A DNA stretch of 64,000 nt from Sulfuriroseicoccus oceanibius (GCF_010681825.2 NZ_CP066776.1:2914001-2978000), one strand, 5' to 3'; shown: positions 60,275 through 64,000, counted from the stretch's first letter. The notes: generated by a model from the sequence alone, not told the origin. Numbers and translations: made by a program.

Positions 60275-61528
60275 TCACCCGCTGCGGATCATCACGTGGT
60301 CCATCGGGCTCTTCACCCCGCAGCCATTCACGCCTTTGGCCACGTGCGTATAGATCTCCGTCGTCGTCACATCCGCGTGGCCCAGCAGTTCCTGGATCGT
60401 TCGCAGATCCGTGCCGCCTTCCAGCAAATGGGTGGCAAAACTATGACGCAGCGTGTGACTCGTCACCCGCTTCTGCACCCCGGATGCGGCCACCGCACGC
60501 CCCAGCGCCCGACTATAACTCTTCGCCAGCACATGATGCCTGCGCACCAGCCCCGTGGTCGGATCGCGCGACATCTCATCCGCTGGAAACATCCAAAACC
60601 ACGCCCACTTCTCCCCCGCCTTCGGCCACTTCCGCTCCAACGCCGGAGGCAGCCACACACCCGGGGCCTCCGCCTCTCGATCCTTCTCATACAACGCCCT
60701 AAGCGACTCCTTGTACTCCAGCCAGCGGTCACCCATCCCCTGCGGCAACACCGTGACCCGGTCCTTGTCGCCCTTACCACCGTGCACCGTCAACTGCCCA
60801 CGCTCCAGATCCACATCCTTCACCCGTAACTGCACCACCTCCTTGATCCGCAACCCAGCTCCATACTGCAACTCCGCCATCGCGCGCCACCGCCCCTCCA
60901 TTTTGTCCAGGATCGCCACAATCTCCGCCACCGACAGCACCGTCGGCATCCGCCTGGGCGTTTGCTTCAGAGTCACCATCAAATCCACCTCCTCCCGACC
61001 ACACACATCGCGGAAAAAAAACGCCAACGCATTCAGCGCCTGCTTCTGCGTCGCAAACGCCACCTGCCTCTCATCCACCAGATAGGCCAGCCAATCCCGC
61101 GCCACCGCCGAATCCATCACCCGCTCCTCGGTCTTGGCCCACACCGCAAACCGCCCGCACCACCCCGCATAGGTCTCCCTTGTCCTCAGCGCCAACCCGC
61201 GCCGACACCCCACACGGTGCACCGCTTGCCGCACCCGTTCATCCAGCGTCGTTGGGGTCACCCCACGCTCCCGACACCGCTCCAGCCAATCCAAATACCA
61301 CCGCATCGCCTCCGCCCATTGGTCCAGCTGCCAACGCTCACGCGGCGCACTCAGCACCTGCGCCCGCCAAAACTCCCGCGCCGATTCCGCCCCCGGTGCC
61401 AGCCGATACCGCTGCCGCCACTGGTCATACCACCCCACCACCACTTCATACCGCGCCTGATCCTGGGCCGACACATCACGCGCCGCCAACAAATCATCCC
61501 GCCATGAGACATTTGAACACCTGTTCAT
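60275..61528 (-). CDS. intI: Integron integrase (IntI-type tyrosine recombinase)
   Basis: A 417-aa site-specific recombinase that moves gene cassettes at attI and attC. All catalytic residues are visible: Arg227 ([10 protein letters not shown]), Lys252 (GGKGDKDR), His358 and Arg361 ([13 protein letters not shown]), His384 ([10 protein letters not shown]) and Tyr393 (EIYTHV). The IntI-specific patch is present at about 296-333 ([18 protein letters not shown], then GLVRRHHV), as is the ending [12 protein letters not shown]. It is about 80 residues longer than IntI1, mostly at the N-terminus. GGGAGG lies 14-19 bases upstream of the ATG. It is divergent from the cassette array, the canonical layout. 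Confidence 0.96.
61514..61527. promoter_or_regulatory. SOS-box-like palindrome over the intI start codon
   Basis: TGAACACCTGTTCA has 6-bp inverted arms and fits GAAC-N4-GTTC, the LexA box type of Gram-positive bacteria. It covers codons 1-5 of intI. LexA control of intI is known in other integrons; that it applies here is inference. Confidence 0.5.
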
Positions 61529-61810
61529 AGGAACACACTAAACCTCCCAACCACACCCAGCCCAGCAAAAAATCGCTCCTTAACATCCGCTGACATTCCA
61601 ATGAATCGAAGCGAATGTTCAACTCCAACACCTCTCCCAACCATCAACCAATCCAAACTTCTCCCCGCCACCAAAAAAACCACCCCAAACCGCCCCCAAT
61701 CCTTGACTCCATAGGCCCTGCCGCCCACACTCCCTCCCTCAAACCACCCGCCCCAAGCTCACCCGATATTGAGCCCGTGGGCGTAAACTAATACTGTTCT
61801 CCAAAAATAA
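61529..61810 (+). promoter_or_regulatory. attI region and candidate cassette promoter Pc
   Basis: The core site GTTCTCC is at 61796-61802, matching the attC ends (GTTCGCC, GTTCGGC, GTTCTGC), so recombination falls after 61796. Just upstream, TTGAGC (61769-61774), a 17-bp spacer and TACTGT (61792-61797) form a plausible sigma-70-like promoter directed into the array. The rest of the gap is unusually C/A-rich and non-coding. Confidence 0.65.
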
Positions 61811-62436
61811 ATGCGACCACTCCTTATCACCATGGGTATTCTATCCTTTTTCAGTTCAAGCAAGGGGCAGGAAAAGCCTCATAAACAACAGCCAATCGCC
61901 ATTGTTGTGGATCTCAAAGAACATAAGATTGGCTCAACCTTGCTAGGTTCTTCAATTGCTGCCACCGACTCTTTTCAGACAGTTGGACAAGGTTGGGAGG
62001 TTGGCACCAAAAATGGATTACTAGACTACGGGCTCTTTGAGATTGGTTGCTTCCAGGGCTCTTACACTCGCGCTGGAGAGCCCATCGAGATTGGAAAGGA
62101 CACAACTCAGAATGACATTTTGAAGATGTTCGGAGAGCCATACTGGACTGACCGTTCCGATGGCGAGGTCATTATGTTCTATGAGTATAAGGCTGGGACA
62201 GTTGAGCTTCAGTTCGAGTTTCCGGATGGCAAGTCTCTCGGCATTATCACGCTCCTAAAGGATGGTGTTCTATCTGAAGCCACCCAGCGCAAAGCATATG
62301 GAGTGACCAAGCCTTGGCCGCCAAAGTAATCGTCTGGGAGAACAAGCCGGCGCAGCCAACCGCGATAACGCTGGATGTTGTTCGCAGGATCTGTAGGCTT
62401 TCACAGTTGCCTGGCGCGGTTGTCTGGCCTTTTACG
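61797..62436 (+). mobile_element. Integron gene cassette 1 (640 bp)
   Basis: The cassette starts with TTCTCC and ends with the G of the attC1 R' core. Its R'' core GGAGAAC is the exact complement of G+TTCTCC, so the circular form would have a perfectly paired core. It contains one gene. Confidence 0.92.
61811..62329 (+). CDS. Cassette 1 protein, exported, unknown
   Basis: A 172-aa protein that starts with a signal-like sequence (MRPLLITMGILSFFSSSKGQ). The mature part is beta-rich with an acidic middle (FEIGCFQGSYTRAGEPIEIG, TQNDILKMFGEPYWTDRSDG, GTVELQFEFPDGKSLGIITL). The segment ILKMFGEP-W recalls small lipoproteins whose fold tests 'is the gene model stable', but I do not assign a family. 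Base composition is less GC-rich than the flanks, as is usual for cassettes. The gene ends 7 bp before the attC1 R'' core, the normal tight packing. Confidence 0.8.
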   Translation: MRPLLITMGILSFFSSSKGQEKPHKQQPIAIVVDLKEHKIGSTLLGSSIAATDSFQTVGQGWEVGTKNGLLDYGLFEIGCFQGSYTRAGEPIEIGKDTTQNDILKMFGEPYWTDRSDGEVIMFYEYKAGTVELQFEFPDGKSLGIITLLKDGVLSEATQRKAYGVTKPWPPK

Positions 62437-62442
62437 TTCGCC
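62337..62442 (+). repeat. attC1 recombination site (106 bp)
   Basis: R'' GGAGAAC (62337-62343) and R' GTTCGCC (62436-62442) bracket inner arms gcagccaaccgcg and cgcggttgtctgg, which pair with one mismatch. It is about 90% identical to attC2. Confidence 0.92.
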
Positions 62443-63091
62443 CCAAAAATGAACCTTCTTGCAGACATCGAAATTGGGCGGATCGTGAGCGTATCGTTGA
62501 TCGCGATGGTAGTCCCGATTGTACTCGGCTTCCTTTATCGATCAGCTCAACGAGATTCACATCAGGCGGCCACAGAGAAGCGAGTCGATTATCCGAAGAC
62601 GCTCAAGATACTCGTTTGGGCAGGATGGGGCTTCACGATTGCGATTGCCATCATTGCAGCCTTCACGGCTAGAGGACACGATTTTTGGCCCGCCTTCTTG
62701 TGTGTTCTACTTTTCGTTGGACTCACCCTATCTCTCCATCTGGAAGCCTATTTCGTGACGATCACCTGGGATGACGGAACCATCTATACCCGCTCTCCGT
62801 GGCGGTGCTCCAGGATGATTCCGCTATCCAGCGTCAGGCACTGTGATTTTTCGCAGACGCTGCAGTGGTATCGCATCCGCACCCAGGGCTACGGCATCGT
62901 CAGGTTGCACATATTTGCTCGGGGCATCCCGCAGCTTCTTGCCGCACTACCGGTTCCGAATCCCGGGTATCCGCCGAAGCAACAAAATCAAGGCGAACAA
63001 GTCGGCGCAGCCAACCGCGATAACGCTGGATGTTGTCCGCAAGATCTGTAGGCTTTCATCGTTGCCAGGCGCGGTTGTCTGGCCTTTTACG
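62437..63091 (+). mobile_element. Integron gene cassette 2 (655 bp)
   Basis: It starts with TTCGCC and ends with the G of the attC2 R' core. The attC2 R'' core GGCGAAC is the exact complement of G+TTCGCC. One gene fills it. Confidence 0.93.
62449..63051 (+). CDS. Cassette 2 membrane protein, unknown
   Basis: A 200-aa protein that starts only 7 bp into the cassette (ATG at 62449). Three transmembrane helices are likely (IVSVSLIAMVVPIVLGFLY near 12-30, VWAGWGFTIAIAIIAAFTA near 55-73, FWPAFLCVLLFVGLTLSLHL near 78-97). A soluble C-terminal beta domain follows (VTITWDDGTIYTRSPWRCS, IPLSSVRHCDFSQTLQWY, IVRLHIFARGIPQLLAAL), loosely like a bacterial PH domain (inference). The last 20 or so residues are encoded by attC2 itself. 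The frame also stays open through attC1 upstream, but that part is not expected to be translated from the natural start. Confidence 0.8.
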   Translation: MNLLADIEIGRIVSVSLIAMVVPIVLGFLYRSAQRDSHQAATEKRVDYPKTLKILVWAGWGFTIAIAIIAAFTARGHDFWPAFLCVLLFVGLTLSLHLEAYFVTITWDDGTIYTRSPWRCSRMIPLSSVRHCDFSQTLQWYRIRTQGYGIVRLHIFARGIPQLLAALPVPNPGYPPKQQNQGEQVGAANRDNAGCCPQDL

Positions 63092-63097
63092 TTCGGC
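62992..63097 (+). repeat. attC2 recombination site (106 bp)
   Basis: R'' GGCGAAC (62992-62998), R' GTTCGGC (63091-63097), and the same inner arms as attC1. Same length and nearly the same sequence as attC1, which suggests that the two cassettes obtained their sites from a common source. Confidence 0.93.
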
Positions 63098-63880
63098 ATT
63101 AACAATGAGAGCACTTATCACCGCGGCACTGATCTCGCTGGCTGGCTTCGCTAAAAGCCAAGAGATTGAGCAGAAACTTGAGACGCTCAATCGCGAGGTT
63201 GAATCCCTCCAACGAGAAATCCGTGAAATTGAAGATCCCGACCAAAAGGCATCAGCTTGGGAGGCGCTTAGGGAATACACGGCTGCGTGGTATCCATTCT
63301 CCTTTCTCTATGCTCCGAATGGTTCGGACGATCTCCAGGAGGACTCTACTGAGGAGGTGCTTCTTGAGGCCGTCTATGGCGCCTTTACAGCCGAACAGGC
63401 TCATTATGGTCGCTCAATAATCCACACGGAAGGAGATGATGAGAGGGCGCGGGAGCTCATGATTCTTCGAGCGGAGACTCTTTGTCGAATCTATCCACTA
63501 GGACGACGTATCGGGTTTGAGGAAGATGTCTATTTTGCTCAGATCATCTTGCGTATCTATGAACATTCTCCTCATGCCGTAGCCGCAGCACTCAAGGATA
63601 ACCTTAGTAGGTGGCACGGTGACGAGCGAGCTATTGCGCTTTTAGTCCTTGGACATCAAGGAGACATCACCGCCCAAAATGAGCTTGAGGAGTTGGACAG
63701 CGAACGAGTTAAGAAGCTATCTGTGGTGGCGAGAGCTTATTTTAATCCCGAAACAGGCAAAGCCGAACAAGGCGTCGCACCACAATCCGCTACCCGCGCC
63801 GAGTCGGAGTCAGAGAGTAGCTACAAACCTCAACCAGATTCGGAGTCGCGCTCCCGGTAGCGGATGTGTGGACTTCGACG
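63092..63880 (+). mobile_element. Integron gene cassette 3 (789 bp)
   Basis: It starts with TTCGGC; the attC3 R'' core GCCGAAC is the exact complement of G+TTCGGC. It ends at the G of the attC3 R' core at 63880. Confidence 0.9.
63105..63860 (+). CDS. Cassette 3 exported protein with coiled coil, unknown
   Basis: A 251-aa protein with a signal peptide (MRALITAALISLAGFAKS) followed at once by a coiled coil (EIEQKLETLNREVESLQREIREIE, about residues 20-43). The rest is helical (EEVLLEAVYGAFTAEQAHYG, MILRAETLCRIYPLGRRIGF, VYFAQIILRIYEHSPHAVAA), resembling HEAT or TPR-like packing. The last 33 residues (Ser/Glu-rich, SESESSYKPQPDSESRSR) are encoded by attC3. No family recognised. The start is the ATG at 63105, 8 bp after the attC2 core. 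Confidence 0.8.
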   Translation: MRALITAALISLAGFAKSQEIEQKLETLNREVESLQREIREIEDPDQKASAWEALREYTAAWYPFSFLYAPNGSDDLQEDSTEEVLLEAVYGAFTAEQAHYGRSIIHTEGDDERARELMILRAETLCRIYPLGRRIGFEEDVYFAQIILRIYEHSPHAVAAALKDNLSRWHGDERAIALLVLGHQGDITAQNELEELDSERVKKLSVVARAYFNPETGKAEQGVAPQSATRAESESESSYKPQPDSESRSR

Positions 63881-63886
63881 TTCTGC
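63762..63886 (+). repeat. attC3 recombination site (125 bp), distinct sequence
   Basis: R'' GCCGAAC (63762-63768) and R' GTTCTGC (63880-63886). The inner arms ccacaatccgctacc and ggtagcggatgtgtgg pair with one mismatch or bulge. The sequence is unlike attC1/attC2 apart from the cores. Confidence 0.85.
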
Positions 63887-63891
63887 TGAAA

Positions 63892-64000
63892 ATGATGCCT
63901 CACCGGAAAGCTCTTCTTCTTGGAGCATGCGGAACTGTCCAAGGACGATTCGGCCGATGGTTCAACCCGATCTTGGCGGAGATCTCCAACGAATATGACC
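63892..64000 (+). CDS. Cassette 4 gene, partial at the right edge
   Basis: An open frame from the ATG at 63892 (MMPHRKALLLGACGTVQG, then RWFNPILAEIS) runs off the window. It starts 12 bp into a new cassette beginning TTCTGC. Too little is present to identify it; an NAD-binding-like GACGTVQG glycine motif is a faint hint. Confidence 0.45.
   Translation, partial: MMPHRKALLLGACGTVQGRFGRWFNPILAEISNEYD

Follow-up and report, generated by a model that had tools for sequence, protein, structure and literature searches.

Six cassette arrays, each headed by an attI site, were found in the chromosome of Sulfuriroseicoccus oceanibius. Two of these sites adjoin an integrase gene (coding for IntI_A or IntI_B), and the other four have none. 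We consider it probable that this organization is a multi-platform integron, in which one or both integrases would serve several promoter-attI landing sites in trans. A broader form of this proposal, on which we remain evenly divided, is a system distributed over the genus: few integrases would serve many promoter-attI sites in trans (six here, at least ten in a genus-mate), with cassettes circulating between sites and several first-in-line cassettes expressed at once. The integrase gene intI_A and the beginning of its array, A3, lie at one end of the window, i.e. the whole stretch of 64,000 nucleotides analysed here (G000:C1:2914001-2978000, from a single-contig genome of 3,496,488 bp). Their features are given in Table 1 together with those of the other arrays.

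Table 1. Features of the window (window positions, A3 locus) and of the other arrays (chromosome positions, contig C1)
Feature	Position	Strand	Description
intI_A, integron integrase	60275..61528	minus	417 aa, divergent from the cassettes
Putative cassette promoter Pc	61703..61731	plus	TTGACT, 17 nt, CACACT
attI region	61732..61796	plus	ends in AACTAATACTG^TT; crossover after G61796
Cassette 1	61797..62436	plus	start GTTCTCC; R'' GGAGAAC, exact complement of own start
ORF of cassette 1	61811-62329		172 aa, no Pfam match
attC of cassette 1	62337..62436	plus	type A, 100 bp; bottom-strand fold z -3.2 (circular)
Cassette 2	62437..63091	plus	start GTTCGCC
ORF of cassette 2	62449-63051		200 aa
attC of cassette 2	62992..63091	plus	type A, 100 bp; R'' GGCGAAC
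Cassette 3	63092..63880	plus	start GTTCGGC; R'' GCCGAAC, exact
ORF of cassette 3	63105-63860		251 aa
attC of cassette 3	63762..63880	plus	type B, 119 bp; bottom-strand fold z -4.4 (circular)
Cassette 4, start only	63881..64000	plus	GTTCTGC; end lies outside the window
Array A1	2,268-2,304 kb	plus	65 cassettes, headed by IntI_B
IntI_B	G000:C1:2267069-2268445 (L017:1069-2445)		458 aa, head of A1
Array A2	2,735-2,726 kb; attI 2735059	minus	15 cassettes, no integrase
Array A3	2,976-3,003 kb	plus	47 cassettes
Array A4	C1:1717477; Pc element 1717363		no integrase, few cassettes
Array A5	C1:1981317 / 1981365		no integrase, short
Array A6	about C1:1595372-1595374	minus	no integrase, short
Promoter-attI copies in genus-mate G001	contigs C70, C90, C56, C136, C16, C110, C101, C46, C62, C71		ten copies

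Integrase, putative promoter and attI of array A3

In a profile search, IntI_A scored 327 bits against the NCBIfam model TIGR02249 'integron integrase' (cut-off 265), and it displayed Pfam matches to PF00589 and PF13495. V. cholerae IntI4 (2a3v) was its top PDB match by sequence (E 6e-62) and also its nearest solved relative by fold, and the alignment of both proteins spans the integron-specific insert. Residues H358, R361, H384 and Y393 were invariant, and R227 nearly so, in a family alignment with 19 relatives. A non-integron Xer recombinase was considered and rejected, since the score reached the integron integrase cut-off and not those of XerC and XerD. The tree placed IntI_A in a clade of 20 sequences composed exclusively of Verrucomicrobiota (SH-aLRT 100); its relatives in genus-mate G001 and other Verrucomicrobiales displayed about 48-61% identity. 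Ahead of the canonical integrase, IntI_A carries an extra N-terminal helical domain (residues ~1-95), predicted as four helices before the core-binding domain with a pLDDT of about 90 there. The same domain, with conserved tryptophans, was observed in its Verrucomicrobiales relatives.

A preliminary description, made from the sequence of the window, had presented this locus as a sedentary chromosomal integron with an IntI bearing the family patch and divergent from three complete cassettes. The TIGR02249 score and the insert alignment bear this out for the integrase and its arrangement, while the 47 cassettes and the similarity of their attC sites support the sedentary character, with which the all-Verrucomicrobiota clade of the integrase is in keeping. 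The three R''/own-start pairs (Table 1) are exactly as the description gave them. It had further expected the array to extend past the window and the fourth cassette to end in an R'' GCAGAAC: the array runs to about position 3,003,030 of the genome, and this R'' was found right of the window. Within the window, the 3' end of the cassette 3 ORF overlaps its attC, and cassette 2 is a 97.7% copy of A1_16 in array A1 (DNA match at G000:C1:2277252-2277918, 97%). No Rfam family matched the window when gathering thresholds were applied. Since Verrucomicrobiota were already listed among the phyla with integrons (PMC8618304), the A3 locus taken alone belongs to a known kind.

The putative Pc displayed a weak -10 and was not called by a sigma-70 consensus scan, so that conservation is what marks it as a candidate promoter. 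The 30-bp Pc element occurred exactly three times in the genome, at A3, A2 and A4, each time ahead of an attI (reversed control 0), and a TTGAC-type element was observed at the corresponding position in many relatives. The Pc pattern of this genome did not transfer to the other genomes searched, genus-mate included; attI sites were for this reason read there from each array. At the head of A3, the GTT junction at 61796 and the conserved attI end point to an attI adjoining intI_A, and relatives keep its layout (GATAT...ACTGTT). The 13-bp attI end WAMKAAWACTGTT was recorded six times in the genome, always at an array head (reversed control 0), against about 0.5 occurrences expected by chance in 3.5 Mb at the genome's G+C; the pattern was written from the six heads themselves, and the search adds only its absence elsewhere in the genome.

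Cassette borders, attC sites and cargo

Two further large arrays, A1 and A2, were found by DNA search and made the border rule, by which each R'' is the reverse complement of the start of its own cassette, testable far beyond the three cases of the window. The rule was examined over A1, A2 and A3, with attC sites placed initially by BLAST for the most part and in a few cases by eye. Exact reverse complementarity to the own start was observed for 101 of 115 R'' boxes. When only informative cases were counted (own and next start differ), 93 out of 106 fitted their own start and none the next one (0/106). When the R''/start pairing was permuted, 9.3 of the 115 boxes matched on average and never more than 21, and chance agreement of R boxes was rejected on this basis, as the preliminary description had argued from its three-for-three agreement. 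The failures were nearly all unusually long double cassettes, within which the rule itself indicated an overlooked attC (50-122 bp). After these had been split, the arrays comprised 127 cassettes (A1 65, A2 15, A3 47), 124 of which were exact; 115 of the 118 informative cases fitted their own start and 0/118 the next cassette. The splitting step used the border rule itself and is partly circular, so that 101/115 is the less biased figure. Such agreement (124/127 own, 0/118 next) is the known signature predicted by circular-cassette capture, in line with the earlier proposal; the rule is a known cassette property and no evidence for a new kind.

The AAC/GTT cores of the general attC consensus (R'' RYYYAAC, R' GTTRRRY) were present in nearly all of the 127 cassettes of the three arrays, and the type A attC sites (98-103 bp, n=83 in the genome) displayed a mean pairwise identity of 0.88. 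When the bottom strand of an attC site folds, R' pairs with R'' (PMC2727003). The attC-like bottom-strand fold that the preliminary description called for was indeed found, with a mean z of -3.3 over the 127 sites in circular form; as integrated, the three attC sites of the window displayed z values of -1.4 to -1.9 (-19.2 kcal/mol for that of cassette 1). The circular form folded more stably in 117 of the 127 sites, the means being -24.0 vs -20.9 kcal/mol for the integrated form, as expected from the textbook model of a circular cassette. Two cassettes displayed a mutated core mirrored on both sides, namely A1_44a (about G000:C1:2294734-2295220, start GATCTCC, R'' GGAGATC) and a cassette at about 4215-4680 of L014 (start GCTAGAA, end TTCTAGC); selection bias is possible, since it was a search for the complement that revealed both.

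The arrays had a G+C of 0.52 vs 0.58 in the window, and a start codon lay at most 30 nt from the cassette start in 113 of the 122 cassettes with a usable ORF. Few of the 89 cassette proteins from A1-A3 submitted to Pfam matched any family. Orphan immunity proteins were abundant among the recognisable cargo (Barstar twice, WapI, SMI1/KNR4, SUKH, Imm21, Imm32 and Imm39), and PADLOC named the anti-phage family PD-T4-7 in two cassette proteins; both searches gave counts per family, not per cassette. Seven similar cassettes of ~385 bp were also observed in A1 (A1_02, 03, 10, 12, 20, 21 and 53; bodies 83-96% alike). Most of them are devoid of a complete ORF of at least 50 aa, and they are possibly non-coding or promoter-bearing.

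Integrase-less platforms and the displacement of cassettes

The protein search of the genome revealed no integron integrase besides IntI_A and IntI_B, the other matches being shorter tyrosine recombinases. IntI_B is codirectional with its cassettes. It displayed 43% identity with IntI_A over their shared part; in the tree it lay away from IntI_A and grouped with a single integrase from the same order. The arrays of these two distant integrases nevertheless use the same two main attC types.

Arrays A2, A4, A5 and A6 correspond to the formal definition of a CALIN (no intI nearby; 15 attC in A2, few in A4-A6). They are better called integrase-less platforms, as each begins at the shared attI end. 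A5 and A6 were found with the attI of IntI_B as query and, as at A4 (attI followed by a cassette GTTCTCC...GGAGAAC), cassettes follow their attI. The first cassette behind the attI had an exact R'' match at A2, A4 and A5, and one mismatch at A6. A4-A6 are short and some of their cores are mutated (e.g. GCT for GTT), so that they look partly decayed. A4 sits just downstream of a purH-like gene, a name read by eye from the sequence. Between the -35 box and GTT (about 105 bp), the promoter-attI regions of A2 and A3 were about 95% identical, and upstream of this stretch no similarity between the two was detectable. Further upstream, A2 and A4 were weakly similar to each other over about 120 bp (score 24 vs a shuffle maximum of 15). 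These similarities suggest a relationship among the integrase-less platforms and, for the attI of A2, later homogenisation with its A3 counterpart or copying from it.

Fourteen families of coding cassettes were represented by two to four copies each, with bodies 94-100% identical, located in different arrays or far apart within one. No two copies of a family had both neighbours in common, and no block of two adjacent cassettes was shared by copies in any of the 14 families. Near-identical copies of 4 of the 15 cassettes of integrase-less A2 occurred in A1 or A3, the pair A2_07/A3_06 reaching 100%. Judged from these sequences, displacement of single cassettes is most readily ascribed to IntI and differs from what block duplication leaves. 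On the folded bottom strand, attC x attC recombination by IntI would release the cassettes in circular form, and IntI would re-insert them between G and TT at a promoter-adjoining attI. It is most likely that the integrases serve the integrase-less platforms in trans as well; if so, arrays would trade single cassettes, and several cassettes would stand first behind a promoter at the same time.

In genus-mate G001, one promoter-attI module was present ten times, each time on another contig (70-100% identity), and at seven of the ten the first cassette had an exact R'' match. Only the copy on C71 adjoins an intact intI; one lies beside a broken intI and one beside a C-terminal intI remnant. The remaining seven showed no trace of intI in the stretch examined; since some G001 stretches stop at contig ends, this absence carries less certainty than one in the window's single-contig genome. 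The additional platforms likely originated by duplication of whole integrons followed by loss of intI, a process seen halfway in G001, and are likely maintained by integrases acting in trans. Near purH of G001, the stretch read showed neither attI nor attC, which gives no support to A4 being an ancestral platform there. Among other relatives, the genome of L072 displayed a second attI copy without integrase, and two related Verrucomicrobiales genomes had one attI copy each. In closed genome G048, an integrase was present and no array was recognisable by the border rule.

Several observations count against the multi-platform reading: the weak -10 of the putative Pc, the single attI copy of these two Verrucomicrobiales genomes, and the short, decaying A4-A6, whose mutated cores fit relics. 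It is conceivable, though rather unlikely in our opinion, that the chromosome simply has one or two ordinary chromosomal integrons accompanied by dead relics, the integrase-less arrays being old copies that lost intI and ceased to recombine. Besides the few cassettes and mutated cores of A4-A6, the broken intI still lying beside two of the G001 promoter-attI copies is in favour of such relics, and one recognised origin of integrase-less arrays is the loss of intI (PMC8618304). A2, however, fits them poorly: its 15 cassettes are well formed and exactly bordered, four of them are near-identical (up to 100%) to cassettes of other arrays with different neighbours, and its promoter-attI is still about 95% identical to that of A3. 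The arrival of these cassette copies could nonetheless predate the loss of an integrase gene at A2.

The cassette copies could also be attributed to processes independent of IntI, namely ordinary duplication or homologous recombination among the repetitive arrays, for which the attC sites, about 88% alike, offer homology. The differing neighbours in all 14 families and the lack of any shared two-cassette block make this improbable. Off-target insertion at non-attI sites and rearrangement of one large array have both been proposed as routes to integrase-less arrays (PMC8618304), and the attI-like ends would then be coincidental. We give very little credence to this explanation: WAMKAAWACTGTT is common to all six heads and absent elsewhere in the genome, the 30-bp promoter element is common to three of them, and the similarity of A2 and A3 over about 105 bp extends beyond the crossover. 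The multi-platform integron remains our preferred reading.

Relation to known integrons

Like sedentary chromosomal integrons of the Vibrio type, the system described here has an IntI with the insert, an attI, tens of cassettes with highly similar attC sites and a cargo mostly of unknown function. It differs from them by the presence of several attI-headed arrays in one chromosome and of two distantly related integrases with one attC pool. CALINs, i.e. clusters of attC without integrase, are known for example from Xanthomonas and, according to the accepted view, are mobilised in trans (PMC12444791). A2, A4, A5 and A6 resemble them as attC arrays without intI nearby. Unlike CALINs as these are usually pictured, which is no formal criterion, all four start with an attI, accompanied at A2 and A4 by a recognisable promoter element. 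Detection of attI by IntegronFinder 2.0 is limited to class 1 (PMC9024848), so that attI heads of such arrays would normally go unnoticed. No description of CALINs with their own attI and promoter, in multiples, was found in the literature, and a search for genomes with several attI sites returned nothing relevant; its coverage was incomplete, which makes this absence weak evidence.

An intI oriented in the cassette direction is known from the integron of the Treponema denticola type (PMC3607928). IntI_B of A1 shares this orientation, but coexists with the divergent IntI_A platform in the same chromosome. Likewise, more than one intI occurs in 22% of intI-bearing genomes (PMC9024848); two integrases are also present here, in contrast accompanied by four further attI platforms without integrase gene.

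The attC pool common to two very different integrases makes integrase specificity testable within one genome. The usual description of an integron has a single attI next to a single intI, and arrays without integrase are normally regarded as fragments. If the platforms are live, attI copies would be a useful search target, since current software ignores attI outside class 1. For such genomes, live integrase-less attI arrays would call for a revision of array counts, of expression models that give the promoter to the first cassette only, and of the view of CALINs as debris.
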